Positions 26,321 through 41,331 of a DNA stretch of 64,000 nt are shown one piece after another. Source of the DNA: an uncultured Flavobacteriaceae bacterium (GTDB lineage Bacteria > Bacteroidota > Bacteroidia > Flavobacteriales > Flavobacteriaceae). Within the stretch, counting starts at the first letter, position 1; the number at the start of each line of letters is the position of its first letter. Position numbers and translations under genes: made by a program. The notes beneath the pieces were generated by a model, which had not been told where the DNA came from, made no database searches, and was given only the letters and a program-made list of their open reading frames with translations. Where the stretch lies: positions 1-64,000 of the forward strand of contig CAJXVT010000005.1 in assembly GCA_913062575.1 (NCBI GenBank), in the 5' to 3' direction.

Positions 26321-27802
26321 TTGATGAAAACCCTCTATAAATTATTTCTTTCTTTTTTTGTTTTAGTCACCTTTTACAGTTGTACAAAAGAAGACGAAAT
26401 CCCAATCGATGTTGAAATCAATGATTTTATATGGAAATCGTTGAATGCTTATTATTTAAATCAAGATCTGATTCCAAATTTATCTGATAGACGTTTTAAC
26501 TCTCAACCAGAATTAAATAATTTCTTAAGGCAATTTTCGACTCCAGAAGATTTATTCACAAGTTTAACTTCTCAAGGCTCAAGTAGCGATAGTAAATCAG
26601 TGTTAATTAGTGATAACAATCTAATTATAGAACCAGAGATTAGAACCTCTATAACACATGGAATGGAATATGGTATTATTGCCGAACCAGGAAGCACAGA
26701 AAATGTGCTAGGTTATGTTCATTATATTTTACCAAATTCAGACGCCTCTAACCAACCGATTAAAAGAGGTGAGTTTTTTTATGCAGTAGATGACACTCAG
26801 TTAACTAGAGATAATTTTAGAACATTACTAGAAGGATCAGATTCTTATGAATTATATATGGCTAGCTTTAACGGTGTAGATGTTGTAGCAGATTCTATAC
26901 TTGTAAGTACCGTAAAAACCCCTAGAACAATTCCGTTAGCAAAATCAGGGTTTACACATTCACCTATCTTTCTATCAAAGAATATTGTTAGTGGATCAAA
27001 TAATATTGGTTACCTTTTGTATAACAATGACTTTTCTAGTAATTACATTAACTCTTTAAATACTACTTTTTTACAGTTTAAAACACAGGGAGTTAATCAA
27101 CTAATACTAGATTTACGCTATAATATTGGAGGTGGTGGTTTTGTAGAAAATATCAATAAAATTTCAAGTATGATTACGGGGCAATTCACAGGGCAACCCT
27201 TCTTAAAAGAACGTTGGAATACTAAGGCACAACCTTGGTTTGAAAAGCATCAACCAGATTCATTAATTACCAACTTTACTGATAAAATCAATGCCACCAC
27301 TTCAATAAACAGCTTAGAATTAACCGATGTTTATATCCTTATGAATGGAAGTTCTTCTAGTATAGAGTTGTTAATTAACAGTTTAAATAGCTATATAAAC
27401 GTACATATTATTAATAGTGTTGATACGAATGGAAATAATACAGGTTCAATTACCTTATACAATTCAATTGATTATAATTTCTTTGGTAGAAATCTAAATC
27501 ACACCTATGCACTACAACCAATTGTATTAGAGTTTTTAAATAATGACAACGCTACTTTTAATGATGGATTTACACCTGATATGAGAATTTGTACTCAAGA
27601 AGACATCTTAAACTTAGGTGAATTAGGTGAGACTTCAGACCCATTATTAAATGAAGTTCTAAGTTTAGTTAATAACATTCCTCCTTCACCTCCAGTAATT
27701 TGCAATCCAAATAATTTTGAATTTTTATTTAGTTCTTTTAATAGACAAAGATTAGTAGACATTGGCATGTTTATTAAAAGGGACTTACCAAATACGAATT
27801 AA
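26321..27802 (+). CDS. S41 family peptidase-like lipoprotein, predicted catalytically impaired
   Basis: Aligns with the following ORF; LILDLRYNIGGGGFVENI; catalytic Lys position replaced (TNGNNTG versus THGKYVG). Confidence 0.88.
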   Translation: MMKTLYKLFLSFFVLVTFYSCTKEDEIPIDVEINDFIWKSLNAYYLNQDLIPNLSDRRFNSQPELNNFLRQFSTPEDLFTSLTSQGSSSDSKSVLISDNNLIIEPEIRTSITHGMEYGIIAEPGSTENVLGYVHYILPNSDASNQPIKRGEFFYAVDDTQLTRDNFRTLLEGSDSYELYMASFNGVDVVADSILVSTVKTPRTIPLAKSGFTHSPIFLSKNIVSGSNNIGYLLYNNDFSSNYINSLNTTFLQFKTQGVNQLILDLRYNIGGGGFVENINKISSMITGQFTGQPFLKERWNTKAQPWFEKHQPDSLITNFTDKINATTSINSLELTDVYILMNGSSSSIELLINSLNSYINVHIINSVDTNGNNTGSITLYNSIDYNFFGRNLNHTYALQPIVLEFLNNDNATFNDGFTPDMRICTQEDILNLGELGETSDPLLNEVLSLVNNIPPSPPVICNPNNFEFLFSSFNRQRLVDIGMFIKRDLPNTN

Positions 27803-27803
27803 G

Positions 27804-29216
27804 ATGACAAAAAAGGCTACTTTCTTTTTATTAATAATCTTCACACTAGTTTCTTGTACAAAAATAAAAGTTACTCCTTCAGAAAATTTAGAAGTGAATG
27901 ATTTTATTTGGAAAGGTTTAAACACCTTCTACTTATGGCAAGGTAATGTAGCAAACTTAACTGATAACCGTTTTTTAAATTCGGATAGCTATCATCAATT
28001 TTTAAGCTCAGAACCAAATTCAGTACAGTTTTTTGAAAATTTATTATATCAAAGAGAAACCATAGATAAGTGGTCATGGATTGTTGAGGATTACAATGCT
28101 TTAGAAAATTCTTTTCAGGGTATTTCACTGCACAATGGAGTAGAGTTTGGATTGGTCTTTGAAAGAGGAAGTACAACAGATGTTTTTGGCTATGTACGCT
28201 ATGTATTACCTAATACAGATGCTAGCATCAAAAATGTAAAAAGAGGAATGATTTTTAATGCCGTAAACAACACGAGACTAAACATTAATAATTATCGAAG
28301 CTTATTATTCTCAGACAATCTAGATTATTCAATTAATCTTGCTGATTATAATAACGGGAATCCTACATCAAACGGAATGTCAATTTCTTTAACCAAATCA
28401 GAATACACTGAGAATCCAGTCTTCATTACTAAAACAATCAATTCGGGAAGCAAAAAAATCGGCTATTTAATGTACAATAGCTTTACAACAAATTTTGATG
28501 ACGAGCTAAATGCAGCTTTCTTGGTGTTAAAAAATGAGGGAATTACAGATCTAATTATCGATCTAAGATACAACGGTGGTGGCTCTGTTAGAACAGCAGT
28601 TTATTTATCAAGTATGATAACTGGACAATTTACCGGGCAATTATTTGCCAAAAAACAATGGAATGATAAAATCAGCATCAGTAACTCCAGTCTAGAAGAA
28701 AAATTTACAAATCAAATTAATAATGGTACTATTCAGGAAAGTATCAACAGTTTATCTTTAGATAGAGTCTATTTTATTACAACCAACAGTTCTGCATCCG
28801 CATCAGAATTGGTTATTAACGGATTGAATCCTTATATCGATGTCAGAACTATTGGCACAAAAACCCACGGGAAATATGTAGGATCGATTACCTTATATGA
28901 TTCTCCAAAAATGTATAACAAAGAAAACATCAACCCAAATCATACATGGGCAATGCAACCCATCGTTTTGGAGATTAAAAATAAACTTGGAGAGAATAGC
29001 ATTGAAGGGTTTACTCCAAATATATTAATAGCCGAAGATTACAGTAATCTTGGTGTTTTAGGAGAAATCTCTGACCCTTTATTAAATAGAGCAGTGACGT
29101 ACATCACAACAGGATCAAAAGGTCAACAAGCATCAAGAAAAAGTTCGTTTAAAGAGTTTTATAATTCGAAGTTAGCACAGCCTACAAGTAATAATATGTA
29201 CTTAGAATTTAAATAA
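27804..29216 (+). CDS. S41 family peptidase (lipoprotein)
   Basis: LIIDLRYNGGGSV, NSSASASELV, GTKTHGKYVGS; start placed at ATG 27804. Confidence 0.9.
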   Translation: MTKKATFFLLIIFTLVSCTKIKVTPSENLEVNDFIWKGLNTFYLWQGNVANLTDNRFLNSDSYHQFLSSEPNSVQFFENLLYQRETIDKWSWIVEDYNALENSFQGISLHNGVEFGLVFERGSTTDVFGYVRYVLPNTDASIKNVKRGMIFNAVNNTRLNINNYRSLLFSDNLDYSINLADYNNGNPTSNGMSISLTKSEYTENPVFITKTINSGSKKIGYLMYNSFTTNFDDELNAAFLVLKNEGITDLIIDLRYNGGGSVRTAVYLSSMITGQFTGQLFAKKQWNDKISISNSSLEEKFTNQINNGTIQESINSLSLDRVYFITTNSSASASELVINGLNPYIDVRTIGTKTHGKYVGSITLYDSPKMYNKENINPNHTWAMQPIVLEIKNKLGENSIEGFTPNILIAEDYSNLGVLGEISDPLLNRAVTYITTGSKGQQASRKSSFKEFYNSKLAQPTSNNMYLEFK

Positions 29217-34859: not shown

Positions 34860-35996
34860 CTATTTTTCTTTTACTAGATCAATTATTTTATTAGCAACAT
34901 AATCAATTTCTTCAATTGTATTATACTTACCTATTCCTATTCTAAAAGAATTCTTTAAGACTAAATCATTTGCTTGTATAGCTTTTATTACTCTTGATGG
35001 CTTCGTACTTGTACTTGAACAGGCTGATGTTGTAGAAAACATTACATTGGGTAGTTTCCCTTTTAATACTTCTCCAGAAATAGTTGGGATTGAGATATTC
35101 AAATTTCCTGGATGTCTATTTTCAGGACATCCATTTAATTTAATTCCTTCAATTGATGAAAACAATTGATTTTCCATTCTATCACGAAGCATTTTTATAT
35201 GCCCAAATATACGGTTAGATTCTGAATTTAAAATATCACAAGTTTTCCCAAACCCTACAATTGCAGGTGTATTTATTGTACTAGGCCTAATGCCTTTTTC
35301 TTGACCACCTCCAAATAGAATAGGCTTTAATTTTATGTTTGCTTTTTTCCGTACAAAAAGTGCCCCAACTCCTCTAGGTCCATAGATTTTATGTGCAGAT
35401 ATAGAGGCCATATCTATATAGTTAGTATTCATATTTAATTGATACCAACCCAATCCTTGAGTTATATCACAAAAGAATTTTGCTCCTACACTCTTTGAAA
35501 TTTCTCCAATTTGTTTTATAGGCTGCACAGTACCTATTTCATTATTTGCCAGCATTATAGCAACAACCAATGTTTGTTCTGTAGCAGCTTGTTTTAAATC
35601 TTCAGTGTTTATTCTTCCAACAGTATCTACATTTAGTATCGTTACTTTATAGCCTAAACGTCTAATTTCATTGACAGACTGCAAAATTGCTGGGTGTTCT
35701 GTTTTTTGGGTAATAATGTGGTTTCTTTTAGATGCATTAGATTTTAAGAGCCCAAAAAGCGCAATATTAATAGCTTCTGTAGCTCCACTTGTAAAAGTTA
35801 TTTCAGATGGTTTGGCTCCAATTAAATTTGAAACTTGAAATCGCGCATTTTCAACAGCTGAATTTGTTTTCCACCCAGCTTTATGATTTCCATTTCCATA
35901 ATGCTCTGTGAAATAAGGAAGCATTACAGAAAGTACATCTTGATCCACAGGCGTAGACGCATGCGAATCAAGATAAATTACTTTTTTATTCATCAT
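34860..35996 (-). CDS. Cysteine desulfurase family protein (NifS/IscS-like)
   Basis: YLDSHASTPVD, TSGATEAIN, SAHKIYGPRGVGALFVR, cysteine loop FSTTSACSSTSTKPS. Confidence 0.95.
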   Translation of the reverse strand: MMNKKVIYLDSHASTPVDQDVLSVMLPYFTEHYGNGNHKAGWKTNSAVENARFQVSNLIGAKPSEITFTSGATEAINIALFGLLKSNASKRNHIITQKTEHPAILQSVNEIRRLGYKVTILNVDTVGRINTEDLKQAATEQTLVVAIMLANNEIGTVQPIKQIGEISKSVGAKFFCDITQGLGWYQLNMNTNYIDMASISAHKIYGPRGVGALFVRKKANIKLKPILFGGGQEKGIRPSTINTPAIVGFGKTCDILNSESNRIFGHIKMLRDRMENQLFSSIEGIKLNGCPENRHPGNLNISIPTISGEVLKGKLPNVMFSTTSACSSTSTKPSRVIKAIQANDLVLKNSFRIGIGKYNTIEEIDYVANKIIDLVKEK

Positions 35997-36003
35997 TTTT
36001 ACT

Positions 36004-36369
36004 TTAAAATGATAGTGTTTGAGCTCCTTCTATAATCCAATCTAACATTGGCCCTGCTCCTACTATTACTGCTCCTTTAACAATTTCATCTGCATTTAAC
36101 CCTCTATGATTAAAACAAGGAGAACAAGTCCAAATTACTCCTCCATTTGATGCAAAGGACTCCAATAATTCATTCAACTTTTTAAAAGGTTGGATATGTG
36201 TATAATCATTTGCTCCTTCTCTACTTAATTCTACTCCTTCAGAAGATAAAAATATTCCAACTTCTAAACCTTTAGATATCGCTGCATTTGCAACTGTTAA
36301 AGCTACTGTAGAAATATCGCTACTTGAATTTACCGATACTGTTATTACTAATTTCTTTGTGTTTGACAT
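36004..36369 (-). CDS. DsrE family protein
   Basis: 121 aa; VIWTCSPCFNHRGLNADEIVKGAVIVGAGPMLDWIIEGA. Confidence 0.85.
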   Translation of the reverse strand: MSNTKKLVITVSVNSSSDISTVALTVANAAISKGLEVGIFLSSEGVELSREGANDYTHIQPFKKLNELLESFASNGGVIWTCSPCFNHRGLNADEIVKGAVIVGAGPMLDWIIEGAQTLSF

Positions 36370-36389
36370 TTTTTAATATTTAATTGTTA

Positions 36390-37175
36390 TTAATTTTTAA
36401 TTGCTAATATTGAAACACTTTTAATTCCAAATTCTTTAGTTGCACCTTGTGCGCTATCAGAAATAAAAGCATAAGGATTCTCTTTTACTTTTACAATTTC
36501 TAAACCTGCATCTTCTATAAGTTGCCTGTATCCATCTATTTGCATTGCACCACCGATGCATGCTGCCCATAAAGTAGCATTACAAGTAATATTCTCTGGT
36601 AATTTTATTTCAGTAACAATATCAGAAATTGCTAACCTGCCACCAGCTTTTAAAACTCTTGCTGCTTCATTAAATACTTTTGCTTTTTCGCTAGATAAAT
36701 TGATAACACCATTACTAATTACGACATCTACGCTACTAGACATTACTGGAAGCTCTTCAATATAACTTTTACGAAATATTACTTGGCTAAAGTCAAATTC
36801 ATCTCGTAATCTTGATGATTTTTCCAATTGCTCATCCGTCATATCTATACCAATTACTTCACCAGCCTTCCCAACTTTTGTGGCTGCAAAAAATGCATCC
36901 ATACCCGAGCCGCTACCTAACTCCACTACTACTTCACCTTTTTCTAATTGAGCTAAGTCAAAATAATAACCAACTCCAGAAAAAGATTCAATTGCTTGAC
37001 TAGGAATTATATCTAAAGTACTTGGAGGATAATGTACTCTTTCGGCTAATTTTCTTCCCATTTCAAAATGGTATTCCACTTCAGGCTCTAAGGCTACTTT
37101 TTTGTACATATCCTTCACCCTTATTTCTAAATCTTGTTGATCTACTTTTTTCTTATTTTTTAAAATTGTATTCAT
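36390..37175 (-). CDS. SAM-dependent methyltransferase, ArsM-like
   Basis: VVELGSGSGMDAFFAA, VVISNGVINLSSEKAKVFNEAARVLKAGGRLAISDIV, LWAACIGGAMQIDGY. Confidence 0.9.
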   Translation of the reverse strand: MNTILKNKKKVDQQDLEIRVKDMYKKVALEPEVEYHFEMGRKLAERVHYPPSTLDIIPSQAIESFSGVGYYFDLAQLEKGEVVVELGSGSGMDAFFAATKVGKAGEVIGIDMTDEQLEKSSRLRDEFDFSQVIFRKSYIEELPVMSSSVDVVISNGVINLSSEKAKVFNEAARVLKAGGRLAISDIVTEIKLPENITCNATLWAACIGGAMQIDGYRQLIEDAGLEIVKVKENPYAFISDSAQGATKEFGIKSVSILAIKN

Positions 37176-37181
37176 ATTTTC

Positions 37182-37319
37182 TTATTTTAATAATTGATTT
37201 ATATTATGCTCTGTAAGCCATTTTTGTTTATATTCTTTCCATGACAGCTGCTGTTGGGTTACATCATTTATAATCTTTTTCTTGGTGTTTTTTCTAAATA
37301 TATTTTTAAATATTTTCAT
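37182..37319 (-). CDS. Unannotated 45-aa small ORF between the ArsM-like and DUF4395 genes
   Basis: ATG..TAA: MKIFKNIFRKNTKKKIINDVTQQQLSWKEYKQKWLTEHNINQLLK; 6 bp from the methyltransferase start; below the ORF-track length cutoff. Confidence 0.6.
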   Translation of the reverse strand: MKIFKNIFRKNTKKKIINDVTQQQLSWKEYKQKWLTEHNINQLLK

Positions 37320-37444
37320 GATTGTTCGTTTTACATATTGATAATTTTTGGATGTACTAATCTATTATCACTACAGAAGTAGTAATTTCTAAGAGCTAAT
37401 AAACTCTAATTGAAACCTATAATTAACTTGTAATTACATGCTTT

Positions 37445-37933
37445 CTAATCTGGGTTTTGGTTAAATAGTTTGTTGTAAAAAATTGAAGGAATACAGATAT
37501 CTGTAGTACTCACAAGTAATGCAACTGCAAAAAAAGCACCTCCAAAAATATATCCTTGTAGCATAAAATTGCTGTAAAAAAGATACATAACAGTAGTAAC
37601 CCAGAAGAATGCAATTCCACAGGCAAACTTTAATTGCTTAGATCTTCTAGGAACTTTGGGTCTTTTTATCACTCTACTAATTAGTAAGTTATATATATAG
37701 TCAAAAGGATGGTTTGGAAGCACAATAGTTAAAAATGCAGCAACTAAAACAATTGATAATATTTTTACACTTGCAAAAAACACTCCAAAAAACACAATAG
37801 TTGCACATATTTGATATGCAAATCTAATTCCTATAGATAGGTCTGATACCTCTTGATTGGTTTGAGTAAAATATCCTTGCTCACGAATTCTTTTAATTCT
37901 AAATGCTGAAATTAATTTTTTATTGGTTTTCAT
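37445..37933 (-). CDS. DUF4395 domain-containing membrane protein
   Basis: NQEVSDLSIGIRFAYQICATIVFFGVF, PNHPFDYIYN, STTDICIPSIFYN. Confidence 0.85.
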   Translation of the reverse strand: MKTNKKLISAFRIKRIREQGYFTQTNQEVSDLSIGIRFAYQICATIVFFGVFFASVKILSIVLVAAFLTIVLPNHPFDYIYNLLISRVIKRPKVPRRSKQLKFACGIAFFWVTTVMYLFYSNFMLQGYIFGGAFFAVALLVSTTDICIPSIFYNKLFNQNPD

Positions 37934-38218
37934 ATCACTTAAGGTTTTACTTTTTATTTCACTTGTTTTGATATTACAAATCTAAATTAGACTTATAACT
38001 TAATAATTAAAGAATGATGCAATTCTATTAACTATTGTAGTATTCAAAAAACAGGAGTATTTATTCAATTATTAAGCAAACAAATAGGCATATTGTTAAA
38101 TGATGTTGCATAAGCATTAAACTATGTAACAAGTTAAGGTTAATGCAATTAAGTGAATAATAATATTTTGTATTTTTAGACGAGTTATAAATCATCTAGA
38201 AACAAAAAAACAGATTCT

Positions 38219-40411
38219 ATGCATCCTTTTTTAAAAAAAATTGTTGAATCAGGTAACCATCCAAATGATTCAGAAGAAGAAAAAGCAAACAAATCTAACT
38301 TAGTTGTACTAGCAATTCCTTTTGCTTTTGCTGGATTAATTTGGGGTATCTTGTATTTTCTCAATGATCTACTAATACCTGCTTCTATTCCTTTTAGTTA
38401 CGGAATTCTATCTCTTTTAAGCTATTTTCATTTTAGTTATTCTAAAAAATACAAGTTTTACAGAAACAGTCAATTATTTTTAATTCTCATTTTGCCATTT
38501 CTGTTACAATTAAGTTTAGGAGGATTTATTCCAAGTAGCGCTGTTATAATGTGGGCGTTTATTGCTCCAGTCGGAGCTTTAGTCTTTTTTAAAGCAGAGC
38601 ATACCATATATTGGTTTATAAGCTATGCCGGGCTAGTTATTGTTGCTTTTTTTCTAAATGATGTTGTTTCTCATTATTTTGATTGGAATATAAGTAATCA
38701 ATTTACAAACATTGTTTTTGTATTAAATATCTTGGCTGTGTCTAGTATTATTTATGCAGTGCAATATTACTATGTAAGTAAGCAAACAGAACTGAAAGCA
38801 TCTTTAGCCAAGCAAGCAGAAAAACTGAAAGAAAGCGATAAATTAAAGTCGCAATTTTTTGCAAATATTTCTCATGAGTTTAGAACACCATTAACATTAA
38901 TTCTTGGTTTATTAAACAAACAATTAGAAAACCCAAATGAGTTCCCCTTGATACAGGATTCTGAAACCATGAAACGAAATGCAAGTAGATTACTTCAACT
39001 GATAAATCAATTATTAGATTTATCAAAAATTGAAGCAGGCGAATTAAAATTAAACATCTCGCATAAAAATATTTTACCAAGCATAAAAAAAACGGTGTTA
39101 TTGTATGAATCTTTAGGTTATGAAAAGAATTTACAGATTCTGTTTAATGGAAACCCTATTGAAAAAGTTAAAGCTGGTGAGTTAGTTGCTTACTTTGATG
39201 AAGAAAAATTACAAAAAGTAATTTCAAACTTAATTTCAAATGCAATTAAGTTTAGCCATAAAAATGCCACAATAGAAGTTGATGTAAAAAATAAAACCCA
39301 ACAACTTTATATAAGCGTTTCAAATGCTGGAGAAAAAATTTCACCAAAAAACTTGACTTATATTTTTGATAGATTTTATCAAATTGATGGAGAATCTACT
39401 AGAGAATATGAAGGAACGGGTATTGGTTTAGCTTTGGTTAAAGATTTAGTTGAATTGCATCATGGTGATGTAAAGGTAAAAAGTACAACAGCTAAAACAA
39501 CTTTTACTATACGTATTCCTTTAGATAAATCATCTTTCTTTTTAGATAACTTCACCGACAACAGTACTACTGAATCTTTAACTATAGAAACTCCTGAAAA
39601 AACGGTTGAAAAGCAAATAACTAATCGACCAAAAGTCTTTGAAGGTGATAATAACAATGTTTTAGAAGTCTTGGTTGTAGAAGATAATACAGATATTAGA
39701 AATTACATTTCTGACATACTAAAACCATTCTATAAAATCTCTATAGCTGTTGATGGTAAAGATGGCGTAGAAAAAGCAAATCAATCTATACCAGATTTAA
39801 TTATTAGTGATGTAATGATGCCTAAAATGAATGGTTATGAATTATGTAAGCAATTAAAAGAGACTGAAAATACCAATCATATTCCAATTATATTACTTAC
39901 TGCCAAAGCTTCACAGGATAATAAATTAGAAGGCTTACAAACTGGAGCAGATGATTATTTAACAAAGCCATTTGATAAAGAAGAACTTATTATTAGAATT
40001 AAAAATCTAATTACTATTAGAGAAAAATTACAAAAAAAATACCAACAAGAATCTTATTTAAAACCAACAGATGTAAAGGTTAATTCCGTACAAGAAAAAT
40101 TCTTGCAAAAAATTAAAAATATAGTTGAAGAAAATATAGATAATGACCAGTTTAATGTTGAGGATTTAGGAAATCAATTATTTATGAGTAGATCACAAGT
40201 TCATAGAAAGCTAAAAGCGTTAACAAATCAATCTGCGACTCATTATATTCGTAATTATCGATTGCATAGAGCTGCAGACTTACTAAAACAAAACTCAGGA
40301 AACATAACAGAAATTGCTTACCAAGTTGGGTTTAGTAGTCAAACCTATTTTAGTAAATGTTTTCAAGAATTATTTGGCATGAGTCCAACAGAATATAAAT
40401 CAAAACAATAA
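38219..40411 (+). CDS. Hybrid sensor histidine kinase / response regulator with AraC-type output
   Basis: Multi-TM N-terminus, ISHEFRTPLTLI, HATPase, REC (DLIISDVMMPKMNGYEL), C-terminal AraC HTH (ITEIAYQVGFSSQTYFSKCFQELFGMSPTEYK). Confidence 0.95.
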   Translation: MHPFLKKIVESGNHPNDSEEEKANKSNLVVLAIPFAFAGLIWGILYFLNDLLIPASIPFSYGILSLLSYFHFSYSKKYKFYRNSQLFLILILPFLLQLSLGGFIPSSAVIMWAFIAPVGALVFFKAEHTIYWFISYAGLVIVAFFLNDVVSHYFDWNISNQFTNIVFVLNILAVSSIIYAVQYYYVSKQTELKASLAKQAEKLKESDKLKSQFFANISHEFRTPLTLILGLLNKQLENPNEFPLIQDSETMKRNASRLLQLINQLLDLSKIEAGELKLNISHKNILPSIKKTVLLYESLGYEKNLQILFNGNPIEKVKAGELVAYFDEEKLQKVISNLISNAIKFSHKNATIEVDVKNKTQQLYISVSNAGEKISPKNLTYIFDRFYQIDGESTREYEGTGIGLALVKDLVELHHGDVKVKSTTAKTTFTIRIPLDKSSFFLDNFTDNSTTESLTIETPEKTVEKQITNRPKVFEGDNNNVLEVLVVEDNTDIRNYISDILKPFYKISIAVDGKDGVEKANQSIPDLIISDVMMPKMNGYELCKQLKETENTNHIPIILLTAKASQDNKLEGLQTGADDYLTKPFDKEELIIRIKNLITIREKLQKKYQQESYLKPTDVKVNSVQEKFLQKIKNIVEENIDNDQFNVEDLGNQLFMSRSQVHRKLKALTNQSATHYIRNYRLHRAADLLKQNSGNITEIAYQVGFSSQTYFSKCFQELFGMSPTEYKSKQ

Positions 40412-40467: not shown

Positions 40468-40977
40468 CTAGTCTTTTTTTGAAGTTTCGGTAGTGTATTT
40501 TTTTATGTTATAAGTTATACTAATAGTAATTAAAATTGCAAATGGTATTGATATTAAAGTAGAATATAATATTAGTTCATTTTTATTTAAACCAGATGAC
40601 AATTCACGAACAAAGTATTCTGTAGCACCCGCAGCCCATAATCCAATCGCTGCGCCATTCATACCTATTATATGTCTTACTAGCTTATTTTTTTTTCTTG
40701 ATTTTATAATCATAGGATACATTCCATATATCATAAAAAACAATGATACTGGGATTAAAAAATGAAAAACACTAATCTTACCATCATTAAAATCATAAAT
40801 GAATAATGCAGAAATATTTACTATTAATAGAGCTATTGAGAATACATAACCTATTTTTTTATGTTTACCCGTACCTTTTCTAGCTAAAAGAATATATCCT
40901 CCAGTAATTAATCCAATAATTGAAAATACTACATGAATTCCTCCAGTAATTGAATGTACCCAATTGTTAATGTCCAT
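40468..40977 (-). CDS. DUF2306-like membrane protein
   Basis: 169 aa, about 5 TM helices, HKKIGYVF motif. Confidence 0.7.
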   Translation of the reverse strand: MDINNWVHSITGGIHVVFSIIGLITGGYILLARKGTGKHKKIGYVFSIALLIVNISALFIYDFNDGKISVFHFLIPVSLFFMIYGMYPMIIKSRKKNKLVRHIIGMNGAAIGLWAAGATEYFVRELSSGLNKNELILYSTLISIPFAILITISITYNIKKYTTETSKKD

Positions 40978-41331
40978 AGTTATTTTAGTTTAAATTAATA
41001 ATCTTTTTATTAGGTCGTGCTACAAATGTATAAATGAAGTTATCATTTTTAATGAATAGATGTTGTAGACACATTAACTCATGTTGTAAGTCTCTTTCTT
41101 GCTCCTATTAACATAAGCCTTACTTGAATAATATATGTTAATTTATTTATGAGCATGTAAACAAGTACTGTTTAAGTAACCCCACCAAGCAAAAGTCTAG
41201 TAAAATTTTATAGATAGTTTGTAAAAAGATGAAAACCCATTTAAATATATCCAAAAAAAATAACAAAACATTGAGATATCTTAAAAGTGTAAGCGGGTTT
41301 TTAAATATATTCATAATAATTCACTTTATGT

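Follow-up and report, generated by a model that had tools for sequence, protein, structure and literature searches.

A sensor-linked methyltransferase module of a Flavobacteriaceae bacterium with a predicted role in S-methylation of sulfide or small thiols

The enzymes MddA, MddH, MddM1 and MddM2 methylate hydrogen sulfide (H2S) or methanethiol, and are regarded as a means of H2S and methanethiol detoxification (PMC12904073). MddA is a membrane enzyme, whereas MddH, MddM1 and MddM2 are methyltransferases of the UbiE/UbiG type that depend on S-adenosylmethionine (SAM) (PMC12904073). MddM1 and MddM2 comprise 210 and 204 amino acids, and MddH is found mainly in Gammaproteobacteria (PMC12904073, PMC13360808). 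Here a stretch of 64,000 nucleotides (the window) on contig CAJXVT010000005.1 of an uncultured, marine-type Flavobacteriaceae bacterium, represented by a 2.36-Mb draft genome that is 68% complete, is compared with these systems and with the arsenite methyltransferases (ArsM). The window encodes a SAM methyltransferase, in the following called MT (METHYLTRANSFERASE; 36390..37175, minus strand), in a run of genes that is divergent from a membrane sensor regulator. From comparison of sequences, and with moderate confidence, we read these genes as a sensor-controlled module that S-methylates sulfide or low-molecular-weight thiols, and not arsenic. S-methylation of sulfide or methanethiol is the best reading because the operator, the regulator and the accessory proteins are common to MT and MddA operons and because sulfide genes surround MT elsewhere. 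The chemistry predicted for MT is the same as that of MddH, MddM1 and MddM2; MT differs from MddM1 and MddM2 in size, and its likeness to MddH (Halomonas sp. EF61) is by description only. As a soluble protein with the class I fold by Pfam it also differs from MddA, and the MddA model NF045656 was not among the best 25 of its 45 matches.

ArsM proteins are the nearest solved relatives of MT (CmArsM 4fr0/6cx6 and human AS3MT 8xt7). The two have the same fold and about 32% identity, and the nearest NCBIfam model is that of ArsM (NF008823). The best model of all, PRK11873 'arsenite methyltransferase', gives 218.4 bits and is thus under its cut-off of 263. Residues C72, C174 and C224 of CmArsM align with V68, G156 and C206 of MT, so that one of the three As(III)-binding cysteines is kept, the last one, in the motif ACIGGA. 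Valine and glycine at the first two positions are common to the orthologues (comparison loci L001-L044 and L084; 53-86% identity), whereas the next matches after this clade, the ArsM rows L045-L080, retain both cysteines. The ArsM rows are also longer (about 310-380 amino acids, against about 261 in MT), and unlike them MT has sulfide genes as neighbours. In a tree of 78 rows the MT clade is monophyletic with 46 rows (support 98/94), and is separate both from the ArsM clade (97/93) and from a third group of paralogues with the motif SNG. A true ArsM of the arsenosugar type is encoded on another contig of the source genome (L082 1282-2253, contig C23; NF038099, 574.8 bits, cut-off 400). Because of the lost cysteines, the score below the PRK11873 cut-off, the separate clade and this other ArsM, MT does not qualify as an ArsM on the features tested. 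The earlier note had doubted simple arsenic detoxification, a doubt borne out by the clade-wide absence of two of the three cysteines; it had also raised the possibility that MT clusters with a family of known unrelated substrate, and a clade of its own apart from ArsM was found.

The MT clade contains Bacteroidota, Pseudomonadota, Actinomycetota, haloarchaea and metagenome-assembled genomes (MAGs) of DPANN archaea, at least four phyla, the archaeal rows L013 and L021 being DPANN draft contigs in which mis-binning is possible. The gene is patchily distributed, with three occurrences in 350 genomes of the same family when the source genome is counted. This patchiness, together with the spread across phyla, suggests a history of transfer and loss. 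A second family of SNG methyltransferases (TSNGVLNL, WAECVVGA; 35-48% identity to MT) shares several MT loci (L007 5446-6177, L010 9719-10351, L011 5455-6186, L017 9807-10526, L026 5657-6280 and L033 5840-6571). An extracytoplasmic function (ECF) sigma factor and an RsrA-like anti-sigma factor adjoin it in several of them, a combination that is a possible thiol-stress regulon of Proteobacteria.

The neighbours of MT are recurrent across the comparison loci, many of which are MAG contigs. DsrE and a desulfurase are found downstream of MT in L001, L003, L004, L005, L008 and L019, and TlpA/ResA-like and DsbD_N proteins in the Bacteroidota loci L001-L005 and L037. DUF4395 is upstream in L006, L019, L025 and L037, and in L006 the arrangement of regulator, DUF4395 and MT is repeated. 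An ArsR-rhodanese protein, an MBL hydrolase of the GloB/persulfide-dioxygenase type and a major facilitator superfamily (MFS) protein adjoin MT in L012, L018, L027, L040 and L042, and OsmC does so in L006, L023, L031, L035 and L038. Beyond Bacteroidota the neighbours include DsrE, OsmC, rhodanese, or the ECF sigma factor with its RsrA-like anti-sigma factor and the second SNG methyltransferase. Pfam counts for 128 near open reading frames (ORFs) of non-core loci gave eight rhodanese, eight DsrE, eight ECF sigma factor and six ArsR domains, while rhodanese, DsrE, sigma factor and ArsR each occurred at most once in the 99 far ORFs of the same loci. No arsenic genes were seen among the MT neighbours. 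In most Proteobacteria, Actinomycetota and archaea neither a desulfurase nor DUF4395 lies beside MT, and these two therefore look like accessories of the Bacteroidota type, outside the core. The earlier note had claimed a module for sulfur handling and methylation that has a sensor of its own, and this claim holds well past close relatives. In one MAG (JANXVW01) there are two closely similar MT loci (L012 3067 and L018 4453) with DUF4395, ArsR-rhodanese, MBL hydrolase and MFS, which represent either a duplication or a strain mixture. No description of such a gene set was found in the literature titles and abstracts searched (DUF4395/DsrE/methyltransferase; methanethiol/DsrE/rhodanese; mddA operon in Bacteroidota).

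A link to methanethiol methylation is given by MddA itself. In L025 MddA (332.6 bits, cut-off 270) is encoded directly downstream of MT, and MddA (E<=1e-50) is present in nine of 16 MT-bearing Bacteroidota genomes. The background is 24 of 250 genomes of the same family, or 23 of 247 (9.3%) when the MT-bearing ones are removed, and 13 of 247 in the phylum, giving Fisher p values, with kinship ignored, of 1.2e-5 (family) and 2.8e-7 (phylum). The MddA operon of L145 (genome G377) encodes a DUF4395 variant (48% identity, CIPS), OsmC, a 273-amino-acid SAM methyltransferase that differs from MT, TlpA (51%) and DsbD_N, and it is located downstream of a regulator whose kinase-receiver-AraC part has 48% identity to that of the window. 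MddA is thus, despite its other fold, found in the company of the same DUF4395 variant, OsmC, TlpA, DsbD_N, regulator and operator as MT. MddA together with OsmC and the 273-amino-acid methyltransferase was also found in L150-L152. This UbiE-like methyltransferase (MRPELQRRVQRYGWD...; clusters at L150 6282-9087, L151 3208-7079 and L152 8920-16892) is possibly another partner of methanethiol methylation. A small membrane-type protein (LYK.YI.DSI.I.K..G...L...RGW) is encoded directly 3' of MddA in L145 (5689-5919) and L149 (5813-6106).

The regulator of the window (730 amino acids; 38219..40411, plus strand) has HisKA, HATPase_c, Response_reg and HTH_18 (AraC) domains in one chain, beside its operator-predicted target. 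The domain order is that of the hybrid two-component systems (HTCS) of Bacteroidota, and in L001, L002 and L145 an HTCS-type N-terminal part of about 900 amino acids precedes the same core. In the window and in L006, unlike HTCS, the sensor is a compact membrane region of about 200 amino acids, and the predicted target is sulfur methylation instead of the use of polysaccharides. The L006 orthologue is full-length (55% identity, sensor part 52%) and divergent from DUF4395-MT. The DNA-binding ends have 82% (L002), 76% (L006) and 59% (L145) identity to that of the window.

Ahead of the operon, the window and the loci L001, L002 and L006 all have repeats of 16 bp, TGCAACAtnnnTTAAy, paired with a period of 21 bp; L006 has three consecutive copies. 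A distance of 21 bp separates the final repeat from TAGATTTG in the window, L001 and L002. In the window this sequence (37977..37984, minus strand) is a putative -7 box of the Bacteroidota type TAnnTTTG, a motif that alone is not rare (eight in 3.8 kb, 6.7 expected). The repeats were first spotted by visual inspection of sequences that included the window, and were then tested with a weight matrix trained on L001, L002 and L006 only, the window being left out. The three best-scoring pairs of the window, all predicted operators on the minus strand, are TACAACATGAGTTAAT-5-TACAACATCTATTCAT (41052..41088, score 30.2), TGTTACATAGTTTAAT-5-TGCAACATCATTTAAC (38095..38131, 25.6) and the promoter-proximal TACTACAATAGTTAAT-5-TGCATCATTCTTTAAT (38006..38042, 23.4), of which the last lies 21 bp before the TAGATTTG box. 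The next pair scored 16.5, and 2000 random 285-mers never exceeded 16.3. The best pair lies 21 bp before TACATTTG (41023..41030, minus strand), a putative -7 box of a gene for a DUF2306 membrane protein (40468..40977, minus strand; PF10067, 32.4 bits, cut-off 31.6), which is predicted to be a further member of the regulon.

When the pair pattern was searched with up to three mismatches in the draft genome, it occurred in three places only, two in the regulator-operon region and one before DUF2306; the pattern had been written to admit these three sites, and the result is therefore the absence of any further regulon locus at this threshold. Between the regulator and MddA in L145 the matrix gave scores of 28.2 and 19.7; the L145 operator and the DUF2306 site were found by the matrix only. 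In seven loci without a homologous kinase the matrix score did not rise above 16.9, with no strong tandem operator among them. In 47 genomes, pairs with no or one mismatch were found only at L006, L002 and the MddA locus of L145, matches with two or three mismatches in relatives being at or near noise level. No operator match was found in L149, where the regulator adjoins MddA and its DNA-binding end has 52% identity, so the motif is not common to all such regulators. The repeats appear to tie the operon and the DUF2306 unit to the regulator. ATGCAATT, proposed earlier as a weak operator candidate, is indeed sited at 38017 and 38143. The window as a whole, however, has 12 copies where 8.35 are expected, and 13 of 100 shuffles had as many, so that the sequence gives no evidence of an operator. 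In L004 and L005, where the homologous kinase is absent, TTTGTArACC repeats about 60-150 bp before MT probably serve another regulator as its operator.

The other genes of the operon are all on the minus strand, with gaps of 7 nt (desulfurase/DsrE), 20 nt (DsrE/MT), 6 nt (MT/small ORF) and 125 nt (small ORF/DUF4395), so that the tight spacing spans the small ORF to the desulfurase. The six ORFs claimed in the earlier note were all recovered in place and strand, with Pfam in agreement on their domains and with the motifs SNGVINL (methyltransferase) and CSPC (DsrE) present in the translations. The DsrE-family protein (36004..36369; PF02635, 3e-15, 56.7 bits against a cut-off of 22.7) resembles the DsrE/TusD sulfurtransferases in profile and conserved cysteines. 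It differs in the CxxC (C82, C85) of the MT-linked group, both cysteines being invariant in 14 MT-linked homologues across phyla, and no TusB, TusC or TusE partner was seen in the operon. The sole match to the PDB by sequence, a weak one to enoyl-CoA hydratase, was judged spurious. The cysteine desulfurase of the IscS/NifS type (34860..35996) matches Aminotran_5 over its full length, and the pyridoxal phosphate lysine (SAHK) and the catalytic cysteine loop (SACSS) are present. Unlike the housekeeping enzymes it falls below every equivalog cut-off (383.6 against 548 and 376.4 against 530.75), and its companions are DsrE and MT, not IscU or nif genes. It is not the sole one of its kind, as the draft genome has 17 PF00266 matches, the top one on contig C41 (493.6 bits) and another of equal rank on contig C18.

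The DUF4395 membrane protein (37445..37933; PF14340, 52.4 bits, cut-off 24.5) belongs to a variant subfamily with an HPFD motif and CxPS in place of the canonical CxGC, the window copy reading CIPS. C147 is invariant in 28 homologues, with CxPS in all seven MT-linked copies and CxGC in the other 21. The AlphaFold2 model has four long hydrophobic helices (mean pLDDT 94) and no match under E 0.001 was found in a fold search of the PDB. Because of the model helices and the positive-inside rule, C147 and the HPFD loop would lie at the cytoplasmic face of the membrane. The literature search on DUF4395 gave mentions in unrelated contexts only. In the phylum sample canonical DUF4395 genes adjoin rhodanese, thioredoxin-like or O-acetylhomoserine sulfhydrylase-like genes (translations judged by eye). 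Also by eye, the sulfhydrylase-like gene is next to canonical DUF4395 in L098, L100, L104-L107, L110, L112 and L113 (family f15), which suggests that DUF4395 is more generally linked to the use of sulfide. The small ORF of 45 amino acids (37182..37319) is probably a real gene, because diverged homologues precede MT at the corresponding position in L001 (4333-4470) and L002 (5150-5281), with a common stretch (S/T)W..Y(K/R)..WL (E values 0.002 and 0.11, in a search of upstream regions only). Elsewhere in the window there are tandem adjacent genes of the S41 peptidase family (26321-27802 and 27762-29216), the second copy having the better match to the catalytic domain.

The proposed mechanism is as follows. 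The sensor regulator would bind the tandem repeats and switch on both the DUF4395-to-desulfurase operon and DUF2306. The sequences themselves show which genes are present, the clade of MT, the missing arsenic cysteines, the conservation of the neighbourhood, the operator-like repeats ahead of both transcription units and the MddA link. Binding by the regulator and the direction in which it acts, its signal, the substrate and product of MT, the roles of DUF4395 and DUF2306, and also the passage of sulfur from desulfurase through DsrE to MT and the export with DUF4395 proposed in the earlier note, are inferences. MT would transfer the methyl group of SAM to sulfide and/or methanethiol, converting H2S to CH3SH and perhaps further to dimethylsulfide, so that toxic, reactive sulfur would escape from the cell in the form of volatile methyl sulfides. 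The desulfurase and the CxxC DsrE protein may make, carry or buffer cysteine-derived persulfide sulfur, which would either feed or spare the methylation; alternatively they could restore Fe-S clusters or the persulfide balance. DUF4395, with its conserved cysteine predicted at the membrane edge, may together with TlpA and DsbD_N in relatives hold the redox state of envelope thiols. A more specific and rather improbable version is a line from cysteine to volatile sulfur under a dedicated sensor, in which the desulfurase loads a persulfide on DsrE and MT takes the sulfur from DsrE instead of free H2S, yielding methanethiol or methyl persulfide. The literature searched gave no precedent for an enzyme that methylates protein-bound sulfane sulfur directly. 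Several points weigh against S-methylation of sulfide or small thiols. The MddA co-occurrence test was not corrected for phylogeny and its 16 genomes were gathered by the MT search; MT and MddA are directly adjacent in L025 only and were not found next to each other in the other genomes that have both, and MddA was not found in the draft source genome. No assayed enzyme of the MT clade was found in the literature searched, a system that purely removes sulfide would not usually be accompanied by a desulfurase, and the genes present suit selenide or tellurium as substrates equally.

A general module against thiol or electrophile stress, in which MT methylates another small thiol or thiolated metabolite and damage to Fe-S clusters or by persulfide is repaired by the desulfurase and DsrE, is unlikely but deserves serious consideration. 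The TlpA, DsbD_N and OsmC neighbours suggest redox stress control, as do the ECF sigma factor and RsrA-like anti-sigma factor beside MT in several Proteobacteria, but the MddA link and the loci with rhodanese and MBL hydrolase are explained less well. Cysteine desulfurases can use selenocysteine, and thiol methyltransferases often accept selenols. The sequence is compatible with methylation of selenium or tellurium, with the desulfurase as selenocysteine lyase or selenide source and volatile methyl selenides as the product of MT. We give this a slim chance, since the recurrent neighbours are genes of sulfide and sulfane sulfur (rhodanese, ArsR-rhodanese with MBL hydrolase, DsrE, OsmC and MddA), the desulfurase scores 91.6 with the selenocysteine lyase model SclA (cut-off 525), and no selenium-specific gene was seen among the neighbours in a screen that was not exhaustive. 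That unrelated genes stand in a row with no common task would agree with the patchiness of MT and with accessory genes that differ between phyla. Such chance is nevertheless very improbable given the repeated order of MT, DsrE and desulfurase in six loci, the regulator-DUF4395-MT arrangement of L006 and the predicted operator that links both transcription units with the regulator. Arsenite methylation has in its favour the nearest solved structures and models, but with the score under the cut-off, the two cysteines replaced throughout the clade, a separate ArsM in the genome and neighbours among which no arsenic gene was seen, there is hardly any probability left for it. The choice between sulfur, selenium and arsenic left open by the earlier note is in this way narrowed towards sulfide and methanethiol by neighbours, MddA co-occurrence and operator, and away from arsenic.

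The predicted operator gives a readout of which signal switches the module on, and direct methylation of the DsrE persulfide, if true, would be enzymatic methylation of protein-bound sulfane sulfur. ArsM-like proteins with SNG in place of SNC are not to be counted as arsenic methylation genes. The MT clade is an unstudied methyltransferase family that resembles the arsenic methylases without having their arsenic site. The module could be one of the sources of bacterial methanethiol or dimethylsulfide that have yet to be identified, and the clade, spread over at least four phyla and nearest in models to 'arsenite methyltransferase', is a concrete candidate.

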